Assembly (NCBI GenBank): GCA_951828585.1 | Contig: OX639991.1 | Location: 2,326,576 to 2,390,575 of the forward strand | Direction: 5' to 3' | DNA: 64,000 bases | DNA from: Longimicrobiales bacterium | Lineage (GTDB): Bacteria > Gemmatimonadota > Gemmatimonadetes > Longimicrobiales > Gaopeijiaceae | In this document: piece after piece, positions 5,688 through 58,877 of the stretch | How the letters are laid out: each line of letters opens with the position of its first letter | Position numbering within the stretch: position 1 is the stretch's first letter | The notes under the pieces: model-generated | Seen by the model: the letters and a program-made list of their open reading frames with translations, nothing else | Databases searched by the model: none | What the model was told of the DNA's origin: nothing | Made by a program: the position numbers and the translations under genes

Positions 5688-5859
5688 GCAGCCCGCGGAC
5701 AAAATCCCCCCGGCATTCGAGCGGCGATGCATCCGCGCTGGACCGCTTCGCTCTGCGTTGCTCCTCGGGCGAATAGCGCTGCTATTCCCCTTTCGTCGCG
5801 CCTTGCCAGCCCGGCGCCTCACCGCTCTCGGTGCTCGGGCGGATTCATCCACGGACCGC
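5688..5859 (+). repeat. Dispersed MITE-like element, copy 1 (lacks the AT-rich core)
   Basis: About 172 bp. The left end reads GCAGCCCGCGGACAAAATCC and the right end is close to its reverse complement (TCCACGGACCGCC). The centre holds the hairpin GAATAGC-GCT-GCTATTC. It matches the copies at 51584, 54044 (inverted) and 58624. Unlike the two other full copies it has no 67-bp AT-rich core: the two flanking GCTTCGCT repeats are collapsed to one. CTAG termini are not preserved here. Confidence 0.85.
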
Positions 5860-29203: not shown

Positions 29204-29710
29204 TTGTGGAGACTCCTCCCGTCCGCTGCGTCCACCCTGGTGCGCGCCGGGCTGGTGGGGGGGCGGGGCCGGGCGCGGATTGGTCGGGTTGATAGTGGGT
29301 ATGAGGTGGCGGTCGTGCAAGACTCAACCCGGCGCGCGAGTGGTTGTCCCCCAACTTGGCGGGCGCATGCGGGGGGTGTGGGGGGCATCGGGGACGGCTC
29401 GCCCGGAGGCCGCCCGGTGCAGCTCGCCGAATGGAGGCGGCGGATCAAGCGGTTTCTGGAAGGCCGGCGGCTCCGAGGGTGACTACCGCTGCGGGGCCGA
29501 GGCCGGGCACCTGGTTGTCGTTCGCACACTGCTCATTACTGGCGCGCGCGCAGGAGGCTTGGTAGTCCGGCCAAGCGGCAAGGCCGATGTCAGTCTACAT
29601 CGGGAGGCGGTCGACGCCATCCGCGACAATACCTGCCTGTCATCCCCGGCAGGATCCTGTCAACCCAACATTACCAAATGTAAAGCGCGGTTTACATTTC
29701 CCTCCTCCCC
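29204..29710. other. Gene-free stretch between two minus-strand genes
   Basis: About 507 bp with no convincing coding frame on either strand. It holds the leader and ribosome site of the LCAT-like gene at the left and an AT-rich palindrome at 29676-29699 at the right. No RNA gene or repeat copy was recognised. Confidence 0.6.
29676..29699. promoter_or_regulatory. Perfect AT-rich inverted repeat
   Basis: AAATGTAAA (29676-29684) and TTTACATTT (29691-29699) pair perfectly across a GCGCGG spacer. There is no T-run and the stem is AT-rich, so it does not look like a terminator; a protein-binding site is more likely. The same 8-mer half-site AATGTAAA occurs at 1295-1302 and TTTACATT at 44760-44767. 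Confidence 0.5.
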
Positions 29711-32560
29711 TCACCGCTCCCCCATCCACACATCCTCCAACACCCTAACCGTCGTCGCGAACTCCCGCCCGTCCACCGACAGCGACACCCGGTACAGACC
29801 CACCTCCGCCATAGGCCCACCACGACCACCCCCCCCACCCCCGAACCCACCCCCCGACCCCTCCCGCGGATTCCCACGCAGATTCCACCGCACCCGATTA
29901 ATCCCGCTATTCCCCACCGCCTCCAAATCCCGGAACAGCTCACCTGTCTCCGCGCGGCTCACCGTAATGCTCACGTCCCCAGACGCCTCCGCCAACCAGT
30001 ACTGAATCGCCACTCCCGGCTCCGCATTGTCCCCCCGCAACACCTTGCTCCCCGTCACCGACCGCGACCGCCTCGGATCCTGCCTCCACCTCACCGCATC
30101 CCGCGGCTCGAACAGATGCGCCGGCGCCTCCGCCACCTCATCCGTAAACTGCTGCAGCGCCGTGATGTCGTCCGCGATCATCACGCTGCGGCCATGCGTC
30201 GCCAGCACCAGGTCCCCGTCACGCGGATGCACAACCACATCGTCCACGCGCACAACCGGCAACCCGTTCATGAACGGCCTCCACGTCCCCCCCTCGTCCA
30301 GCGACACGAAGAACCCGAACTCCGTCCCCGCGTACAACAACCGCGAGTTGACCGGATCCTGCCGCACCGTGTTCACATTCCCGTACTCCGGCAGATTCGA
30401 CGAAATACTCTCCCAGCTCACCCCATAGTCGCGCGTCACGAACACGTGCGGCCGCAGGTCGTCGCTCCTGTGCCCGTCGAGTGACACGTACGCCGTCGCC
30501 GCGTCGAAATGCGACGCCTCGACCCGCGACACATAGTACCCCATCGTCCCGCCCGGAATGTGCCGGCCCACCTCGACCCAGCTCGAGCCGCCGTTGCGGC
30601 TGAACTGCACGTTCCCGTCGTCCGTCCCCACCCACAGCAGCCCCGGCACGACCGGCGACTCCGCCACCGACACGATCGTGCTGTAGCGGCTGACCCCGTC
30701 ATTGCGCGACAGGATGCACTCCTCGCCGCGGTCCAACCGATTGCAGCGCGGCAGTGAGTTCGCCTGTCCCATCAACTCGACCTCATCCCGGTCGATGTTC
30801 TTCGTCAGGTCCGGGCTCATCGTCCACGTCTCGCCCCGGTTCATCGACCTGAACAGCCGGTTCCCGCCCGCGTACACCACGTCCGGGTTGTGCGGCGACA
30901 GGATGAACGGCGTGTTCCAGTTCCAGCGGATCTCGGTGCTCGCCTCGGGCGCCGGCACGATGTTCGTGTTCGGGTTGTTCCGCGACGGCGCGCGCGGCCG
31001 GATGCTGCCGGCCTGGCCGGTCTCCAGACTCGTGCGCCGGATGTTCCCGTTCTGCGACTCGAGGTACACGACGGTGTAGTCGGTCGGATCCACGGCGGTG
31101 TAGAAGCCGTCGCCGCCGCCCACCCGGTACCAGTCCTCGCTCAGGATGTCGCCGTTGCGGACCTGGCTGGGGCCGCACCAGGTGCCGTTGTCCTGCAGGC
31201 CGGTGCAGACGTAGTACGGGCGCCGCATGTCCACCGACGCATGGTAGGGCTGACCGACGGCCCAGCGCCGGAATGACTCCCAGGTCTCGCCCCGGTCGTA
31301 GCTGACGTCGATCGATCCGTCGTTGCCGATGATCAGGTGATCGCTGTCGCCGGGGTTGATCCAGAAGGCGTGCTGGTCGACGTGTCCGTATCCGTTCAGC
31401 CTCTCGAAGTTCTCGCCGCCGTCGATCGACCGGTGCACCCGCTGGTCGACCACGTACACGACATCCGCGTCGTTCGGATCGACCCGGATCTGGCTGAAGT
31501 ACATGGGGCGCCCGTTCTCGTTGCTCCGGAATTCCCAGCTCGCGCCCTTGTCGTTCGAGCGCCACACCCCGTTGTACTGGGGATCGGGGGGAAGGGGCTC
31601 GCGTTCGCGGGACAGGCGCTGCAGCTCCTCCCGTTCGTCGTCGCCCAGCGGCTCCTCGCGGTCGGCCGCGACCTCGATCTGCGCGTACACGACGTTCGGG
31701 TCGGCCGGGGTCATGGCCAGCGCCACGCGTCCCATGGTGCCATTGGGCAGCCCGCTGCCGCTCAGCCGGGTCCAGGTGTCGCCGCCGTCGTCGGAGCGCC
31801 AGATCCCGCTGCCGGGCCCGCCGCCCACGAAGCAGCAGGCGGTGCGGCGCCGCTGGTAGGTGGCCGCGAAGAGCGTGTTCGGGTTCGAGGGGTCGATGAC
31901 GAGGTCGGTCGCGCCGGTGTTCTCGTCCACGTGGAGCACATGGTCCCAGGTGCGGCCGCCGTCGCTGGTCTTGTAGACGCCGCGCTCGGGGTTGGGACCG
32001 AAGAGGTGACCGGTGGCCGCGACCCAGGCCACGTCGGCGTTAGTGGGGTGAGCGACCACGCGCGCGATCGTCTGCGTCTCGCGCAGGCCGACATGCGTGT
32101 AGGTCTCGCCGCCGTCGGTCGACATGTACATCCCGTCGCCGAACGAGGAGCTCTGCCGGTTGTTCGCCTCGCCCGTGCCGACCCACACGATGTCCGGGTT
32201 CACGGGCGAGATGGCCAGCGCGCCGATCGAATGGGTGCCGTAGCTGTCGAAGACGGAGCGGAAGGTGGTCCCGTTGTTGGTCGTCTTCCAGAGGCCGCCG
32301 GTCGAGAAGCCGACGAGGTAGGTGTGGATGTCGCCGGGGTGGACGGCGAGGTCGTCGACGCGCCCGCCCTGGCCGAACGGGCCTACGGAGCGCCAGCTGA
32401 ACGCGCGCACGAGCGGGTCGTCGGACTGGTTGACCAGGGGGGTGTCGTCTTCGTCCTGGGCTTGGATGGGGGTGGGAGGGAGGGTGGCCGTGGCGAGGAT
32501 GGCGAGGGCCAGGGTGGCCGGGGCGGGGTGGGTGGGGAAGAGATTGCGGTTCCCGAACAT
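29711..32560 (-). CDS. Sortilin/VPS10-type BNR-repeat propeller protein, exported
   Basis: 949 residues from ATG 32560 with GGGAGGA upstream; signal peptide ends near IQAQ. Repeated Asp-box motifs (SxDGGxTW) recur: YMSTDGGETY, YKTSDGGRTW, WRSDDGGDTW, WRSNDKGASW, VSYDRGETW, VTRDYGVSW, VSLDEGGTW. Together they build one or two large propellers of the VPS10/sialidase-like type over residues ~70-770. A Gly-rich spacer and a small C-terminal beta domain follow. No sialidase catalytic Arg triad is evident. Proteins of this design are abundant and secreted; the ligand is unknown. Divergent from the Xre/RES module. Confidence 0.82.
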   Translation of the reverse strand: MFGNRNLFPTHPAPATLALAILATATLPPTPIQAQDEDDTPLVNQSDDPLVRAFSWRSVGPFGQGGRVDDLAVHPGDIHTYLVGFSTGGLWKTTNNGTTFRSVFDSYGTHSIGALAISPVNPDIVWVGTGEANNRQSSSFGDGMYMSTDGGETYTHVGLRETQTIARVVAHPTNADVAWVAATGHLFGPNPERGVYKTSDGGRTWDHVLHVDENTGATDLVIDPSNPNTLFAATYQRRRTACCFVGGGPGSGIWRSDDGGDTWTRLSGSGLPNGTMGRVALAMTPADPNVVYAQIEVAADREEPLGDDEREELQRLSREREPLPPDPQYNGVWRSNDKGASWEFRSNENGRPMYFSQIRVDPNDADVVYVVDQRVHRSIDGGENFERLNGYGHVDQHAFWINPGDSDHLIIGNDGSIDVSYDRGETWESFRRWAVGQPYHASVDMRRPYYVCTGLQDNGTWCGPSQVRNGDILSEDWYRVGGGDGFYTAVDPTDYTVVYLESQNGNIRRTSLETGQAGSIRPRAPSRNNPNTNIVPAPEASTEIRWNWNTPFILSPHNPDVVYAGGNRLFRSMNRGETWTMSPDLTKNIDRDEVELMGQANSLPRCNRLDRGEECILSRNDGVSRYSTIVSVAESPVVPGLLWVGTDDGNVQFSRNGGSSWVEVGRHIPGGTMGYYVSRVEASHFDAATAYVSLDGHRSDDLRPHVFVTRDYGVSWESISSNLPEYGNVNTVRQDPVNSRLLYAGTEFGFFVSLDEGGTWRPFMNGLPVVRVDDVVVHPRDGDLVLATHGRSVMIADDITALQQFTDEVAEAPAHLFEPRDAVRWRQDPRRSRSVTGSKVLRGDNAEPGVAIQYWLAEASGDVSITVSRAETGELFRDLEAVGNSGINRVRWNLRGNPREGSGGGFGGGGGGRGGPMAEVGLYRVSLSVDGREFATTVRVLEDVWMGER

Positions 32561-43183: not shown

Positions 43184-44752
43184 ATGACACCCGGCACCCA
43201 CCCGACCCGACGCCCCACCACCCCCGCCGCCGAGGAGATCCTGGGCGGCTACTTTCCCGTCCTCGACCACGGCTTCGTCGCGCTCGTCGACTACATGGGC
43301 ACCGACGACTCGGTGGAGCGCGCCGCCCGCGTCAGCTACGGCTACGGCACCCGCAAGGTCTCGGCCACCCGGGGCCTGATCCGCTATCTGCGCCGCCACC
43401 TCCACACCACGCCGTCGGAGATGGTCGAGTTCAAGTTCCACTGCGCGATGCCGATGTTCGTCGCGCGGCAGTGGATACGACACCGGACGGCCTGCCTGGC
43501 CCAAGGCACCGAGGTGTACTTCGACCTGCCCGGCGCGGAGGCGAGAGGGGAACGCAAGCTCTACAAGCTCCCCATCGAGGAGATCTGGCAACGCTTCCAG
43601 CCAACCCTGAACATGCGCCCGGACAAACAGCGGAACCCGTTTTTTCGCCGTGACCGCGTGAAGCGGATGAAGCTCCGGCAGATCGACGAAGATACGCTCG
43701 CGCTCCAGCACACCCGGATCGTGGACGTGTACCGAAATGGCGCGAAACCGGTCTTCAGAATGGTCCTGGAAGACGGCAAGTCGATCGAGGCCACGTCGAA
43801 TCACCGGTTCCTGTTCGCGGGGGGTTGGGACACGCTCCGCGGAGCAACCGGGCTGCGGGAGAAGGGTAGGCGGGCGGTCTGGAGACAGGGGGACTACTTC
43901 GTGCATGTGAACGGAGCGGCGGAGAAGCGCGACTGGACCTGGTTCCACAAAGCCAAACTCGTGCGAATCTCCCGCTTCGAGTACGTCGGCGAACGCGAGA
44001 CCTACGACCTCGAAGTCGAAGGCCCGCACCACAACTTCGTCGCCAACGGCATCGTCACCCACAACTCCGTCAACGAGTACAGTGGCCGCTACAGCCTCAT
44101 GCCGCTCCTCTTCTACAGCCCCGAGCAGGACCAGTTCTCGCTGCAGAGCGCGACCAGCAACCAGGGCCGCGCCCCGGGTTCCGTCACCCCCGAGTTCTAC
44201 CGCGATGCCATGCGCCGGTGGGAGAAGGTGCGTTCGCAGGCGGCCGGCGACTACGGCTGGCTCGTCGGCGAAAACGTGGCCCGCGAACTCGCCCGCATCG
44301 ACCTGCCGCTCTCGACGTACACGCAGTGGTACTGGAAGATCGACCTCCACAACCTGCTCCACTTCCTCACGCTCCGCGTCGACGACCATGCCCAGTGGGA
44401 GATCCAGGAGTACGGCCGCGTGATCGCTGGAATGGTCAAGCGCGTCGCGCCGCTCAGCTACGAGGCCTGGGTCGACTACCAGGTGATGGGCGACAAGTTG
44501 TCTCACGGCGAGATCCAGGCGCTGTCGCGGCTGGTGGCGGTGGATGGGGAGGGGTTGGCTGGGCGATCTGGGGCCGACCTGTCGAACGCCGACCTGGCCG
44601 AGCTGGGGCTTTCGGGGCGTGAGATCCGGGAGTTGAAGGAGAAGCTCGCGCCGCGCGACGTGCCGGACTACGAGTTGGATCTGGCGGTCATGCGGGACCC
44701 GGAAGAAGTGGCGGCGGAGATGGACAAGGCGGTGCCGGAGGTGGACCGGTAA
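43184..44752 (+). CDS. thyX: Flavin-dependent thymidylate synthase with an in-frame intein
   Basis: The precursor is 522 residues; after removal of the 191-residue intein, ThyX is 331 residues. ThyX makes dTMP from dUMP with FAD, NADPH and methylene-tetrahydrofolate. The N-extein ends QWIRHRTA and the C-extein resumes SVNEYSGRYS, so the ThyX motif RHRxxS is split exactly and the enzyme cannot work without splicing. Downstream conserved segments include SNQGR and the tetramer helices (DLHNLLHFLTLRVDDHAQWE). A ~70-residue charged C-terminal extension is present. ATG 43184 has no strong ribosome site. No thyA was seen in the window. Confidence 0.95.
   Translation: MTPGTHPTRRPTTPAAEEILGGYFPVLDHGFVALVDYMGTDDSVERAARVSYGYGTRKVSATRGLIRYLRRHLHTTPSEMVEFKFHCAMPMFVARQWIRHRTACLAQGTEVYFDLPGAEARGERKLYKLPIEEIWQRFQPTLNMRPDKQRNPFFRRDRVKRMKLRQIDEDTLALQHTRIVDVYRNGAKPVFRMVLEDGKSIEATSNHRFLFAGGWDTLRGATGLREKGRRAVWRQGDYFVHVNGAAEKRDWTWFHKAKLVRISRFEYVGERETYDLEVEGPHHNFVANGIVTHNSVNEYSGRYSLMPLLFYSPEQDQFSLQSATSNQGRAPGSVTPEFYRDAMRRWEKVRSQAAGDYGWLVGENVARELARIDLPLSTYTQWYWKIDLHNLLHFLTLRVDDHAQWEIQEYGRVIAGMVKRVAPLSYEAWVDYQVMGDKLSHGEIQALSRLVAVDGEGLAGRSGADLSNADLAELGLSGREIRELKEKLAPRDVPDYELDLAVMRDPEEVAAEMDKAVPEVDR
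43493..44065 (+). other. Mini-intein in ThyX (no homing endonuclease)
   Basis: 191 residues from CLAQGTEV (block A, Cys1) to NGIVTHN (block G, His-Asn), followed by Ser as the +1 residue. Block B is IEATSNHRF (TxxH). Block F is YDLEVEGPHHNFVANG. The ~75 residues between A and B are longer than usual and basic, but no LAGLIDADG motif is found, so it can splice but not home. It sits in the ThyX motif, directly after RHRTA. Confidence 0.92.
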
Positions 44753-45051
44753 ACGACAGTTTACATTATGGAAAGCTGGGGTGACAATTTGGATGCGTGA
44801 GGCGTCCCATCGGCGTTCAACCGTCAAGGAGCAAGCGTGAGGCAGATAGATCGCCTTCAGGGTATTTCAGACGCTGTCGAACCCTGGGACATGCCGAGAG
44901 TACGGCGTTTCCGCGAACGTGAACAGGCGGACGACGGGACTGACGAGGTGGAGCGTTGAGGTGCACAGGTGACGGATCGATGGTTGAGAAGGGCGTTGAA
45001 GACCGCGCGGCTGTCGCTAACGCATCGGGCAGCGAAGTGGAGTGCTTCCGG
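44753..45051. other. Intergenic stretch with a relict of the dispersed-element core
   Basis: About 300 bp without a recognised gene. At 44760-44776, 8 bp after the thyX stop, TTTACATTATGGAAAGC matches the AT-rich core of dispersed-element copy 3 in reverse orientation almost base for base. The GC-rich arms of the element are absent. The right end holds the ribosome site of the D-aminoacylase pseudogene. Confidence 0.5.
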
Positions 45052-51049: not shown

Positions 51050-51583
51050 CTACTGCGGCACCCTCGGCACGGTGGTCGCGCACAAGGCCGAGGACATGCT
51101 GGCCCAGTTCGAGGCGGCGCGGGATGCGCGCGGCAAGGCGGCTCGGCGCCCCGTGGGCATCATGGTGGACTCGGCCCCGGACCTGCCGGATGCGGTGGCG
51201 CGAGCCCACGGTATCCACATAGTCCCGCTCCTGCTCATCGACGGCGATCGCACGATCGCCTGATCGCGCCGGGGCGGGTGAGCCAGTTCGCGGGCTGGCT
51301 GGGAGGCTTCCTGGACCTCAAGCCGGTCTTGGGGCTGGCCGACGACGGCACGGTGAAGGCGTGTGGCAAAGCCCGTGGAGCCGTCCGTGCGAAGAAGATG
51401 ATTCTGGACACGGTGGCGGCCGCGATTCCGACTGGCGCGAATAAGGTGCGTTTCGGGGTGATCACGCGGCCGCGCCCGAGATGGCGGATCTGTTGCGGAG
51501 CGAACTCTCGGCGCGCTACGAGGGCGCCGAGATCCTGGTCGCGCCGATCACGCCGGTCATCGCCATACATTCGGCGGTTCCGA
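51050..51583 (+). pseudogene. DegV-family (fatty-acid-binding) gene remnant
   Basis: Three DegV-like pieces lie in three frames: CGTLGTVVAHKAEDMLAQFE to RPVGIMVDSAPDLPDAVARA and HIVPLLLIDGD (stop at 51263), then GRVSQFAGWLGGFLDLKPVL and GKARGAVRAKKMILDTVAAA, then MADLLRSELSARYEGAEILV with ITPVIAIHS. Two frame breaks and a large deletion between the first two pieces have destroyed it. The last piece ends just where dispersed-element copy 2 begins, short of the usual HxGPGxxG end. Intact relatives bind fatty acids for FakA kinase. Confidence 0.7.
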
Positions 51584-51702
51584 GGCTTCGCTCTGCGTTG
51601 CTCCTCGGGCGAATAGCGGTGCTATTCACCTCTCGTCGCGCCTTGCCAGCCCGGCGCCTCGCCGCTCTCGGTGCTCGGGCGGCTTTATCCACGGACTGCT
51701 AG
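51584..51702 (+). repeat. Dispersed MITE-like element, copy 2 (right half only)
   Basis: 119 bp matching the right part of the element from GGCTTCGCTCTGCG to CCACGGACTGCTAG. The hairpin GAATAGC-GGT-GCTATTC is intact. The left half and AT core are absent. The terminal CTAG (51699-51702) supplies the TAG stop of the opposite-strand gene 51699-52136. Confidence 0.85.
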
Positions 51703-52782: not shown

Positions 52783-54036
52783 CTACACCCCCTCCGCCAT
52801 CGCCTTCAGGAACTCCGCGTTGGTGCGGTGGCGGCTCATGCGCTCCATGAGGAACTCGATCGCTTCGGGCGCGGGCATCTGTGCCAGGAAGCTCCGGAGC
52901 AGATAGACGCGGTTCAGCTCCGTTTCGGTCAAGAGCAGCTCCTCCCTCCTCGTCCCCGAGCGGTTGAGGTCGATGGCCGGGAAGATTCGCAGGTCGGCGA
53001 TCTCGCGGTCCAGCACGAGCTCCATGTTACCCGTGCCCTTGAACTCCTCGAAGATCACTTCGTCCATGCGGCTGCCGGTCTCGACCAGAGCGGTCGCGAT
53101 GATCGTCAGCGAGCCGCCCCACTGGATGTTGCGGGCCGACCCGAAGAAGCGCTTCGGCCTGGCCAGCGCATTCGCGTCCACGCCCCCGGACAGGATCCGG
53201 CCCGAGTGCGGAGCCAGAATGTTGTACGCCCGGGCAAGGCGTGTGATCGAGTCGAGGAGGATGACCACGTCGCGCCCCTGCTCCACCAGCCGCTTCGCCC
53301 TGGCCATCACCATCTCAGCCACGTGACGGTGGAGGCTGGCCGGCTCATCGAAGGTGGACGCAACGACCTCCCCACGCGTGGTCTCGATCATCTCCGTCAC
53401 CTCTTCCGGGCGCTCGTCGATGAGGAGCACGAACAGGTCGGCGTCGGGGTGATTGGTCGAGATCGCGTTGGCCATGTGGCGCAGGATGGTGGTCTTGCCG
53501 GCCTTGGGTGGCGACACGATCAACCCTCGCTGCCCCATCCCCACCGGCGCGATCAGGTCCATCATGCGCATTGCCAGATCGCCCCCTGGGACCTCTAGCG
53601 TCAGCCGCTCATCGGGGTAGCGCGGCCGCAGCGCACCGAAGCTGGCTCGCTGGCGCGCGGCCTCCGGACGGTCTCCGTTGACGTGGTCCACGCTTACCAG
53701 CGCCAGATGCCGCTCGCCGCTGGCCGGAGGTCGCACCGGTCCGGCCAGCACATCCCCCGTTCGCAGGCCGTAGGAATCAATCTGCGCGCGGCTCACATAG
53801 GGGTCGTCGGGTCCTGCACCGTAGTGCCATCCTGGCGACCTGAGGAAGCCGTGGCCCTCGGGCATGACGTCGAGCACCCCCTCGACACGCAGCGTCTCGT
53901 TCCGCCCCAGGAGCCCCTGATAGATCGTGAAGATGAGGTCCTGCTTGCGGAGCCCGGCGTAGTGCGGGATGTTCAGCGCTTCCGCGTAGCTGTGCAGTTC
54001 GGCTACCGTGCTGTTCTTGAGTTCGGCGATTTCCAT
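52783..54036 (-). CDS. rho: Transcription termination factor Rho
   Basis: 417 residues from ATG 54036. The N-terminal Rho_N helix bundle ([20 protein letters not shown]) and the cold-shock-like RNA-binding domain ([20 protein letters not shown]) precede the ATPase core: Walker [22 protein letters not shown], and [11 protein letters not shown] with the Q-loop region [20 protein letters not shown]. Rho is a hexameric RNA helicase that ends transcripts. No ribosome site is visible before the start; instead a dispersed element ends 7 bp upstream, so the native leader was probably replaced. Confidence 0.97.
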
Positions 54037-54043
54037 CGGGGAG

Positions 54044-54294
54044 CTAGCAGTCCGTGGACCAAGCCACCCGAGCACCGAGAGCGGCGAGGCGCTGGGCTGG
54101 CAAGGCGCGACGAGAGGGGAATAGCGGCGCTATTCGCCCGAGGAGCAACGCAGAGCGAAGCCCGGCGAAGATCCAATGTACATTGCGCATTACATAATGG
54201 AAAGTAGTCATTACATTGTGAAGAGTTGAAGCGAAGCGGTCCAGCCCGGATGCATCGCTGCTCGAATGCCGAGTGGTTTTGTCCGCGGGCTGCC
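54044..54294 (-). repeat. Dispersed MITE-like element, copy 3 (inverted, with AT core)
   Basis: 251 bp. The CTAGCAGTCCGTGGA end is at 54044, close to the rho start; the other end reads TTGTCCGCGGGCTGCC. The hairpin GAATAGC-GGC-GCTATTC is present. A 67-bp AT-rich core (54163-54229) lies between the direct repeats AGCGAAGCC and AGCGAAGCG. The core is about 60% identical to the equally long core of copy 4, whereas the arms are far more alike. Confidence 0.88.
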
Positions 54295-54386
54295 CGGAGA
54301 GGTGCCGGACGGGCGGCTCGGACGAGCGCGGCCCGGCTGGCAGTCCGCGGGGCATACCCCCTCGGGCACCGAGAGGTTTCCACGAG

Positions 54387-55565
54387 TTGCCAGGAGTCCG
54401 AAGCATTACGAACACTTCCACGGAGGTCAAGGTTCCCGGTGCCGATCCCGCATGGGACGAACTTCTGGCGAACCACGCGACGGCCAACGCCGGCGGATGC
54501 CGTGTGGTCCGGGGGTGGGTCAGGTCCGGGGTCTCCGAAGAAGACGGGCAAAAGATCGCGGATTGGGCCGACCAGGTCCACACCCGGGACACGGCCGAGG
54601 GGACCGAACTGGTTGCGGTGCGGCGGGACGGACCGCCTCTCCGTGACAACCTCATGCTCCACCTCTTGCTGTTCGTGGCCGCACTGGGGAGCGCGGTGGT
54701 GGCGGGGGGATTCCTCTCCGGCACCGATGTCCTCGATACCCGTTTCACCCGGATCGGCGGGGTCTGGTTGCCGGTTCCGACCGGGTTCGATGTCGGCGAG
54801 ATGGTGGCCGGACTTGCATTCGGTCTCACCTTCATCGGCATCCTGTTCGGACACGAGATGGGACACTACCTGACCGCGCGCCGGCACGGCGTCCCCGTTT
54901 CCCTGCCCTGGTTCATTCCGTTTCCGCCCTACTTCTCCCTGGTGGGCACGCTGGGAGCCTTCATCCGCCTGAAGGGTCCCATGATGCGGCGGTCGGTGCT
55001 CTTCGACATTGGGGTCGCGGGGCCGCTGGCAAGCTTTGCGCTGTCGCTGCCTGTGCTCTTTCTGGGACTCGGCATGTCGGAGGTCATGTGGACGACCGAC
55101 GGAGGACTCTACCCCTTCGTCATACACTTCGCGGGCGAGCCGATCCGGATCGGGAGCAACATTCTGCTGCATTTCGCCGCCGCGAGCGCTGTCCCCGGCT
55201 TCGAGCAGGGCTCGGCCGTTCTCCTGCATCCCCTGGCCTTCGCGGGATGGCTGGGCATCTTCGTCACCGCGCTCAACCTGCTGCCGCTTGGACAGCTGGA
55301 TGGGGGACACATCCTCTACGCGGTCGCCGGAGCCAGGCAGCGCGCCTTCACCATCGCCTTTATCGCGGTGCTCGTTCCGCTTGGCGTGATGTGGTGGGGC
55401 TGGTGGCTGTGGGGGGGGATCGCGTTGGCGGTGAGCCGGGGGAGACTTGCGCATCCCCCTGTGCTCGTGGAGGATATCCCGGTGGGGAAGGGGCGGAGGA
55501 TACTGGGATGGGTGGCCCTCGCGCTATTCGTGCTCAGCTTCTCACCTGCACCGTTGGAGCTGTAA
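54387..55565 (+). CDS. Site-2 protease-like M50 membrane metalloprotease
   Basis: 392 residues if TTG 54387 is the start (GAGAGG upstream); GTG 54273, inside the dispersed element, is the alternative. There is no in-frame ATG near the beginning of homology, so the original start may have been lost when the element inserted. ILFGHEMGHYLTARR carries the zinc HExxH, and NLLPLGQLDGGHILYA the third ligand. About eight membrane helices surround them. Such proteases cut membrane-bound regulators within the bilayer. The N-terminal ~75 residues are soluble. Confidence 0.82.
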   Translation: MPGVRSITNTSTEVKVPGADPAWDELLANHATANAGGCRVVRGWVRSGVSEEDGQKIADWADQVHTRDTAEGTELVAVRRDGPPLRDNLMLHLLLFVAALGSAVVAGGFLSGTDVLDTRFTRIGGVWLPVPTGFDVGEMVAGLAFGLTFIGILFGHEMGHYLTARRHGVPVSLPWFIPFPPYFSLVGTLGAFIRLKGPMMRRSVLFDIGVAGPLASFALSLPVLFLGLGMSEVMWTTDGGLYPFVIHFAGEPIRIGSNILLHFAAASAVPGFEQGSAVLLHPLAFAGWLGIFVTALNLLPLGQLDGGHILYAVAGARQRAFTIAFIAVLVPLGVMWWGWWLWGGIALAVSRGRLAHPPVLVEDIPVGKGRRILGWVALALFVLSFSPAPLEL

Positions 55566-58627: not shown

Positions 58628-58877
58628 GCAGCCCGTGGACAAAATCCTCCCGGCATTCGAGCGGCGATGCATCCGTGCTGGCCGCTTCGCTGCACCTACT
58701 CATACTGTAAAGATAACATTACATTATGTCATGTATGCTATACATTATGTCACTCCAAGGCTTCGCTCTGCGTTGCTCCTCGGGCGAATAACGCTGCTAT
58801 TCCCCTCTCGTCGCGCCTTGCCAGCCCGGCGTTTCACCGCTCTCGGTGCTCGGGCGGCTTTATCCACGGACTGCTAG
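58624..58877 (+). repeat. Dispersed MITE-like element, copy 4 (complete, CTAG at both ends)
   Basis: 254 bp bounded by CTAG on both sides (58624-58627 and 58874-58877). Imperfect terminal inverted repeats: CTAGGCAGCCCGTGGACAAA against the complement CTAGCAGTCCGTGGATAAAG. It holds the GAATAAC-GCT-GCTATTC hairpin (one arm base changed) and a 67-bp AT core (58692-58758) between CGCTTCGCT and GGCTTCGCT. The core contains ACATTATGTCA twice. It lies exactly between the mlaD stop and the NUDIX start. Confidence 0.92.

Follow-up and report, generated by a model that had tools for sequence, protein, structure and literature searches.

A MITE-like repeat in a Longimicrobiales genome whose optional core carries a putative protein-binding doublet

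INTRODUCTION

REP and BIME elements are short palindromic sequences that occupy intergenic positions, behind genes and between convergent genes. The 39-bp doublet described here is likewise short, palindromic and intergenic, and is found behind genes and between convergent genes; however, it is AT-rich in a GC-rich genome, its spacers are unconserved, and it shows hardly any hairpin covariation. It was encountered in the core of a MITE-like element, for which the Correia elements (NEMIS) of Neisseria provide a precedent: as outlined in excerpts of a review of bacterial MITEs (PMC2229807), these exist in 107-bp and 155-bp forms that are set apart by a 50-bp block with an IHF site. Our element shares with them its small size, its terminal inverted repeats and the existence of a long and a short form, whereas its internal block measures 76 bp (one direct repeat counted) and holds a putative protein site in the form of a palindrome doublet. 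It also comes from another phylum, its sequence is different as far as seen, and the doublet is dispersed independently of the element as well.

The letters of the doublet recall the TyrR box of enterobacteria, which, in the portions of the source used here (PMC4374768), is given as TGTAAA-N6-TTTACA, with a G and a C 14 bp apart that are invariant in working boxes. The same half-sites, N6 spacer, G/C distance and pairing of two adjacent boxes recur in the doublet. In contrast to TyrR boxes, the sites reported here are not promoter-linked and number dozens rather than forming a small regulon; since their positions are wrong for promoter control, we do not claim TyrR itself as the binding protein. 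For sites that lie behind genes, the stoperators of mycobacteriophages offer a working model: in the sections of the source considered (PMC9283540), these are numerous and dispersed, and repressor bound to them halts transcription elongation, although they are asymmetric phage sites, whereas ours are symmetric chromosomal doublets known from sequence.

RESULTS

Four repeat copies in the window

The window is the whole stretch of DNA analysed, 64,000 nucleotides long (G000:C1:2326576-2390575), and G000 is its own genome, a single contig of 4.47 Mb. Four related repeat copies lie within it (chance expectations 0.07 and 0.00), and all six matches to AGCGAAGC in the window fall inside these copies. 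Their features, and the genes next to copy 3, are as follows:

5688-5859, minus strand: copy 1, core-minus element of 172 bp with a single AGCGAAGC (5745-5752)
51565-51699, minus strand: copy 2, left arm and the first 20 bp of the core, then broken off (core end by eye), with one AGCGAAGC (51585-51592)
52783-54036, minus strand: rho, left neighbour of copy 3 (Pfam)
54047-54293, plus strand: copy 3, core-plus MITE-like element of 247 bp, from its ends and length; TAGCAGTCCGTGGA at 54045-54058
54047-54161, plus strand: left arm of copy 3, from terminal repeat GCAGTCCGTGGA up to the first AGCGAAGC
54154-54161, plus strand: first direct repeat AGCGAAGC of copy 3
54162-54229, plus strand: AT-rich core of copy 3, 68 bp
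54177-54215, plus strand: conserved 39-bp doublet within the core of copy 3 (box 1, 54177-54194; box 2, 54198-54215)
54230-54237, plus strand: second direct repeat AGCGAAGC of copy 3
54230-54293, plus strand: right arm of copy 3, with terminal repeat TCCGCGGGCTGC at its end
54504-55565, plus strand: M50 peptidase gene, right neighbour of copy 3 (Pfam)
58628-58874, minus strand: copy 4, core-plus element of 247 bp (core, 58692-58759; doublet, 58706-58744), with two AGCGAAGC (58684-58691 and 58760-58767)

The initial annotation had described cores of equal length between direct repeats in copies 3 and 4, which is correct, although each core measures 68 bp and not 67; the two agree at 41 of 68 aligned columns, close to the 'about 40 of 67' then given. 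Likewise, copy 1 does have a single AGCGAAGC and lacks the core exactly, and the duplicated ACATTATGTCA reported for copy 4 is present (by eye). Copy 2, by eye, is not a coreless form: its break point lies inside the core.

The element and its mobility

Allowing up to three mismatches, G000 contains 78 matches to the left-arm anchor and 92 to the right-arm anchor, the reversed patterns giving none. In the stretches fetched from this genome, 104 anchor-bearing places were recognised, 71 of them with both anchors (among these, a few are without the outer left arm). The 59 copies with both ends recognised are 170-172 or 246-249 bp long, with one exception of 238 bp, and end in imperfect inverted repeats, GCAGTCCGTGGA and TCCACGGGCTGC; the element is thus short, bounded by terminal inverted repeats and present in many copies, as expected for a MITE. 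Some copies form tandem arrays, in which core-plus and core-minus forms occur. Counted over the 59 copies, those in tandem arrays included, CTA stands before 17 and TAG after 6 (two copies have both), and TA is present on both sides of 5; a CTAG target, as read by eye, is not borne out by these counts.

A search of 59 genomes found the left arm in 34, among them every one of the 23 in the genus. At 21 orthologous rho loci, one of them truncated by its contig, arm anchors with no more than four mismatches are seen only in G000 (in two further genomes of the genus, the only match was to a second rho gene), and the element thereby shows the presence/absence polymorphism among relatives that is typical of MITEs. 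In a close relative, G019, both element ends are kept at the rho locus with 6 bp between them (by eye). Because it is absent or reduced at orthologous rho loci, the element is mobile or removable. An IS630 partner sharing the element's ends was not found in the genome: within 1.5 kb of the seven DDE_3 matches, there are only scattered, mismatched terminal-repeat matches and no border pair.

A search of a species collection with an exact pattern of the element's central block gave at least 112 stretches, from 10 phyla (Pseudomonadota, 38; Gemmatimonadota, 31; Acidobacteriota, 28; others, 15). Among the matches listed, the block GGCAAGGCGCGACGA-N-GAGGAGCAACGC is common to palindrome-like elements with differing outer ends. 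With anchors near the window's form, the gap exceeds 60 in 23 of the at least 112 loci, all of them Gemmatimonadota records. G000 is itself related to Gemmatimonadota records, sharing 73-86% DNA identity with them over up to 2.6 kb. Four Acidobacteria records (L132, L163, L190 and L196) carry a GC-rich insert of 42-48 bp, with the pattern CCGGGGTCCCC...GGGGT, between the central block and the right anchor, which is where the Gemmatimonadota carry the AT-rich core.

Two further kinds of variant were seen in G000. Very short elements of ~57-86 bp, in which the same terminal repeats enclose little other sequence (e.g. the repeat pairs 388694/388764, 2695618/2695662 and 3190717/3190761), are further internal deletion forms. 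In six core-plus copies (L072, L088, L090, L096, L099 and L102), the left end is replaced by one shared sequence, the junction falling between ...CCATC and GTGGA. The replacement in L088 carries an IS110-family transposase (PF02371/PF01548), the other five having been compared by sequence alone; the replacing sequence looks like an IS110 element that targets the terminal repeat of the MITE.

In the open-licence literature, no match was found for GGCAAGGCGCGACGA, AGCAGTCCGTGG, CGACGAGAGGGGAATAGC or two spellings of the TyrR box, and GAGGAGCAACGC and GCAGTTGGACG occur only in works that are unrelated by title; in the main text of PMC10469786, the words 'repeat', 'MITE' and 'transposase' are absent.

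An optional core

Classing the genomic copies by their core, as had been proposed, divides the 71 with both anchors into 37 with a core (inter-anchor gap, 83-86) and 34 without (gap, 8-9), with nothing intermediate; as in Correia-type repeats, the long and the short form differ by one internal block. Cores of random length and sequence, which the initial annotation had named as evidence that would count against it, were not encountered: there are two gap classes, and the cores can be aligned. Moreover, the coreless copies retain a single AGCGAAGC-type repeat, which supports the suggested loss through recombination between the short repeats. On an arm tree built from 60 distinct copies (30 per form, with the core left out and L055, L069, L103 and L114 dropped), the core-plus/core-minus trait changes at least 12 times, compared with about 20 for shuffled labels, and three of these changes are forced by well-supported branches. 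Since coreless copies keep one repeat, repeated loss of the core between the AGCGAAGC repeats is the simplest reading, core gain or exchange being a possible alternative.

A doublet of dyads inside the core

Ten columns are invariant among the 34 distinct cores and eight more are conserved at 90% or above; these are located in the half-sites, the conserved columns outside them being a single T of the second spacer and the A that precedes the first. The conserved letters make up four TGTAA-type half-sites, arranged as two 18-bp dyads that lie three bases apart (TGTAWA-N6-WTKACA, N3, TGTAAW-N6-WTTACA), with equivalent letters recurring every 21 bp, or two helical turns. Mean pairwise identity (32 copies; L055, L103, L114 and duplicates dropped) is 0.915 over 80 bp of the left arm and 0.978 over the 24 bp of the right anchor, both values being partly selected through the anchors; in the core, it is 0.872 at the 20 half-site positions, 0.583 at the 19 spacer positions and 0.51-0.53 in the outer flanks. 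The core had initially been entitled 'fast-evolving': this holds for the spacers and flanks, but not for the half-sites and, judged from these alignments, the most useful part of the core is what stays unchanged, the opposite of what that title conveyed. A neutral, AT-rich filler that drifts freely would be in keeping with the low overall identity of the cores (median 0.65), but it can hardly be reconciled with their near-fixed length, the invariant half-site columns, the 21-bp repeat and the independent copies elsewhere, and we give it next to no credence.

Inverted half-sites could also pair within a single strand. Folded as one hairpin, 66.9% of the cells of the 39-mer alignment pair, compared with 66.4% for shuffles, and its covariation score is reached by 25 of 500 shuffles; as two hairpins, the values are 67.5% and 66.9%, with covariation reached by 60 of 500 shuffles and the pair types by 24 of 500. 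Compensated changes (e.g. TGGAA/TTCCA) exist and are few, and Rfam gave no match for the whole window at the gathering threshold, or for 53980-54340 at E up to 1. With pairing so near to that of shuffles and no Rfam match, a stem-loop or RNA element is disfavoured. Covariation being barely above shuffles, we therefore read the doublet as a double-stranded protein site: it is probably not a hairpin, but a dyad read by a protein, and a weak structural contribution is possible.

One core, that of L079 (G000:C1:3017600-3023300), is split by about 3.4 kb of DNA that contains a fragment of a tyrosine recombinase (PF00589), and GTTAAC is present at each junction. Such an arrangement might be expected if the core were an attachment site for such a recombinase. 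However, the end of the insert is a repeated element with 26 genome matches, and the copy at L242 has a DDE transposase (PF13701/PF01609); the letters past the insert ends are often TTAA- or TTGA-like (by eye), and the recombinase fragment itself looks like a passenger. The insert is better explained by an IS, and we rejected the attachment site as very improbable. No tRNA was found beside the seven loci with odd or split cores.

Doublets away from the element

A model built from the 34 core sequences gave at least 151 matches in G000 up to an E value of 5, some of which are a single place matched on both strands; since scoring covered 150 of the 486 candidates, the count is a lower bound. Removal, by coordinates, of the neighbours of one- and two-anchored copies leaves at least 71 places, weak matches included (E up to 0.12), of which 70 were fetched and one more lies at 29.7 kb of the window. 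The window contains two isolated doublets:

29658-29696, minus strand: isolated doublet, no arms detected, 14 bp past the stop codon that ends the gene at 29711-32560 (minus strand); E value 3.8e-7
43184-44752, plus strand: thyX gene (Pfam)
44748-44786, plus strand: weaker isolated doublet, no arms detected, overlapping the thyX stop; weight-matrix score 27.7

At the weaker doublet, the core model gave no match. The ThyX gene, whose stop codon it overlaps, carries an intein splicing domain (PF14890).

Palindromy in the 70 isolated sites scores 11.8 of 19 and the 21-bp repeat 10.8 of 18, compared with 10.9 and 10.0 for the element cores and 5.5 and 5.0 for shuffles; the likeness of these sites to the core is partly selected, because they were found with a core-derived model. 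At least 10 of the 12 letters of TGTAAA-N6-TTTACA are present in one box or more of 66 of the 70 isolated sites and 30 of the 34 element cores (both boxes of copy 3 have 10), a level that shuffles reach at one position in 0.03% of cases. The G and C that are 14 bp apart are found in box 1 of 67 and box 2 of 68 of the 70 isolated sites; beside the doublet, there is no third box beyond control level.

Might the isolated sites be decayed MITEs, with the arms gone and the core last to fade? Arm remnants at 13 of the 70 G000 sites point in this direction. So does the comparison of core scores: 17 of 92 sites (70 from G000, 20 from G019 and two from the window) exceed the 99% remnant level, and remnant-bearing sites have a mean core score of 53.6, compared with 45.6 for those without, although four of the 17, counted in this mean, are whole G019 elements. 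However, 57 of the 70 have no remnant above the 99% level (set from 568 controls), many of them with near-complete half-sites; the element comes and goes at rho loci, and some isolated sites recur at orthologous positions. We regard wholesale decay as improbable.

Related genomes also contain the motif. In 374 kb of G019 (20 stretches), a weight matrix gave 21 hits, 20 without overlap, of which four are whole elements and 16 are arm-free; block shuffles of the same stretches gave none. For G001, a distant relative (rho, 73%) and thus a sample of limited use, 400 kb yielded three hits, compared with none in shuffles. The at least 112 loci of the species collection contain eight extra doublets that are arm-free by a loose test, all in Gemmatimonadota records. 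On the chromosome, no regional clustering of sites was detected, their spread being even (p 0.53).

Position relative to genes

To define gene ends, a home-made gene finder was trained on the window. Of 75 remnant-free sites (G000, G019 and window), 69 could be placed, five being at edges and one inside a gene. At 44 of these 69, the distance from the preceding stop codon is no more than 40 bp, compared with a mean of 10.0 and a maximum of 21 in 2000 random trials. The placed sites divide into 41 in tandem, 17 in convergent and 11 in divergent gaps, where gap length predicts 35.8, 8.5 and 24.7 (p 2e-4); against an expectation by gap count (45.4, 9.4 and 14.3; p 0.026), the convergent excess is weaker. 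Sites in tandem gaps are a median of 19 bp from the upstream stop and 72 bp from the downstream start (p 7e-6). In 87 site-free gaps, by contrast, the most AT-rich 39-mer falls near the middle (0.54), and the element's own copies are at 0.38 of tandem gaps and less stop-proximal (separate gene-finder run). Structures resembling intrinsic terminators occur at 5 of 56 gene ends with a site and at 13 of 201 without; being equally rare in the two groups, they give no hint that a site takes the place of such a structure.

These positions bear on the suggestion, made in the initial annotation, that the core holds a promoter or a binding site. As a promoter or operator for neighbouring genes, of the kind proposed for Correia-element promoters, the core would have in its favour the TTGACA/TTTACA half-sites, the location of copy 3 between the divergent rho and M50 peptidase genes, and the finding of at least 9 of 12 -35/-10 letters in 50% of element cores and 67% of isolated sites, compared with 19% and 21% in the respective shuffles. 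However, this extra likeness is explainable by the half-sites alone; arm-free sites are mostly behind stop codons, not in promoter regions as TyrR boxes are, and fall below expectation in divergent gaps; and the neighbouring genes are mixed, save for one paralogous family (13 neighbours) on either side of sites. The promoter half of the suggestion is thus weak, and we hold it to have only a small chance of being right; the binding-site half fares better.

In search of a shared neighbour that might be the regulator, the neighbouring genes were clustered by BLAST, which yielded IS110 transposases, the family with 13 neighbours, a second family with 6, and small groups; ten of the proteins were inspected by eye. 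The 13-member family comes from 12 loci (including L312, L314, L331, L343 and L346), two of them from G019 and another relative; it is beta-propeller-like by eye, and the one member tested had no Pfam match. One member of the 6-member family was tested and gave a weak match to a six-bladed beta-propeller (0.0003).

Conservation and spread of the sites

Six isolated loci of G000 are covered by the G019 stretches, and four of them are resolvable (L286 and L328 are not). At three of these four (L284, L285 and L326, the last with a weak arm remnant), G019 keeps the site behind orthologous genes; at L334, it has lost about 32 bp of the site. Between the two genomes, the half-sites at L284, L285 and L326 agree at 18, 20 and 18 of 20 positions, respectively, and the spacers at 13, 10 and 16 of 19. 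Pairs with G007 and G015 agree too, those loci having been chosen because they carry the motif. At L297, L299 and L302, where G000 has a site, G001 is without one.

A model of 58 isolated sites, searched under stricter filters, gave at least 39 matches in 22 of the 23 genomes of the genus and at least 94 in 16 of these 22, in counts that include element-borne cores and possibly both strands. By genome, the number of matches runs from none (G009, the one member of the genus in which this model did not find the motif) through 39 (G001) to at least 108. Outside the genus, there is one match in 1 of 12 other family members and none in 24 members of the order.

Such figures raise the question of whether the 39-bp doublet might be a tiny selfish palindromic repeat, similar to REP or uptake sequences, that multiplied within this genus and of which one copy landed in a MITE and rides along. 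Its position behind genes would then be where insertions are tolerated, an outcome also to be expected from the purging of harmful insertions, and the range of match numbers within one genus, from 0 to at least 108, suits a spreading repeat better than a fixed system. A REP-like pattern, with sites nearly always intergenic, behind genes and over-represented between convergent genes, and the slight excess of covariation point the same way. Against this, the spacers and outer flanks vary from site to site while the half-sites stay, which is the mark of a binding site and not of a recently copied repeat, and the site is retained at three of the four orthologous loci that could be resolved in G019. 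We consider a selfish repeat unlikely, although it is an alternative to be reckoned with.

DISCUSSION

Our preferred explanation, to which we would assign a probability of roughly 0.6, is that the MITE-like element carries the core as an optional module, whose working part is a 39-bp composite, putatively protein-binding doublet. In its favour are the conservation of the half-sites within the element and the at least 71 sites elsewhere, mostly without detectable arm traces. The small excess of covariation slightly lowers our confidence in this explanation; nevertheless, as far as sequence comparison can take it, the reading of the doublet as a binding site is well supported.

As to how such a module might work, we infer that a dimeric host protein of the helix-turn-helix type, with a TyrR-like letter preference, would bind both dyads on one face of the helix. 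With less confidence, we suggest that the protein bound at isolated sites could mark or insulate gene ends, for instance by stopping RNA polymerase arriving from either side. The element may have captured the doublet, or may keep it, and the doublet may make insertions tolerable or recruit the bound protein for transposition; copies would then lose the module by recombination between the AGCGAAGC repeats. A role at gene ends is a hypothesis for the doublet. Its furthest extension would be a genus-wide, protein-bound system, in which a dimeric protein on dozens to hundreds of TyrR-box-like doublets per genome, located behind genes, stops or insulates transcription from both sides, intrinsic terminators are seemingly rare, and the MITE spreads the site; this we put forward as a speculative proposal that is more probably wrong than right by a good distance.

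Whether the protein-binding motifs of bacterial MITEs are captured from the chromosome or born in the repeat is posed as an open question in the portion of the review cited above (PMC2229807). Here, an element-borne module and arm-free sites can be compared within one genus, across more than 20 genomes, and the capture question is therefore testable. If the sites do act at gene ends, they would amount to a protein-dependent element spanning the chromosome, in a phylum of which few members have been cultured.
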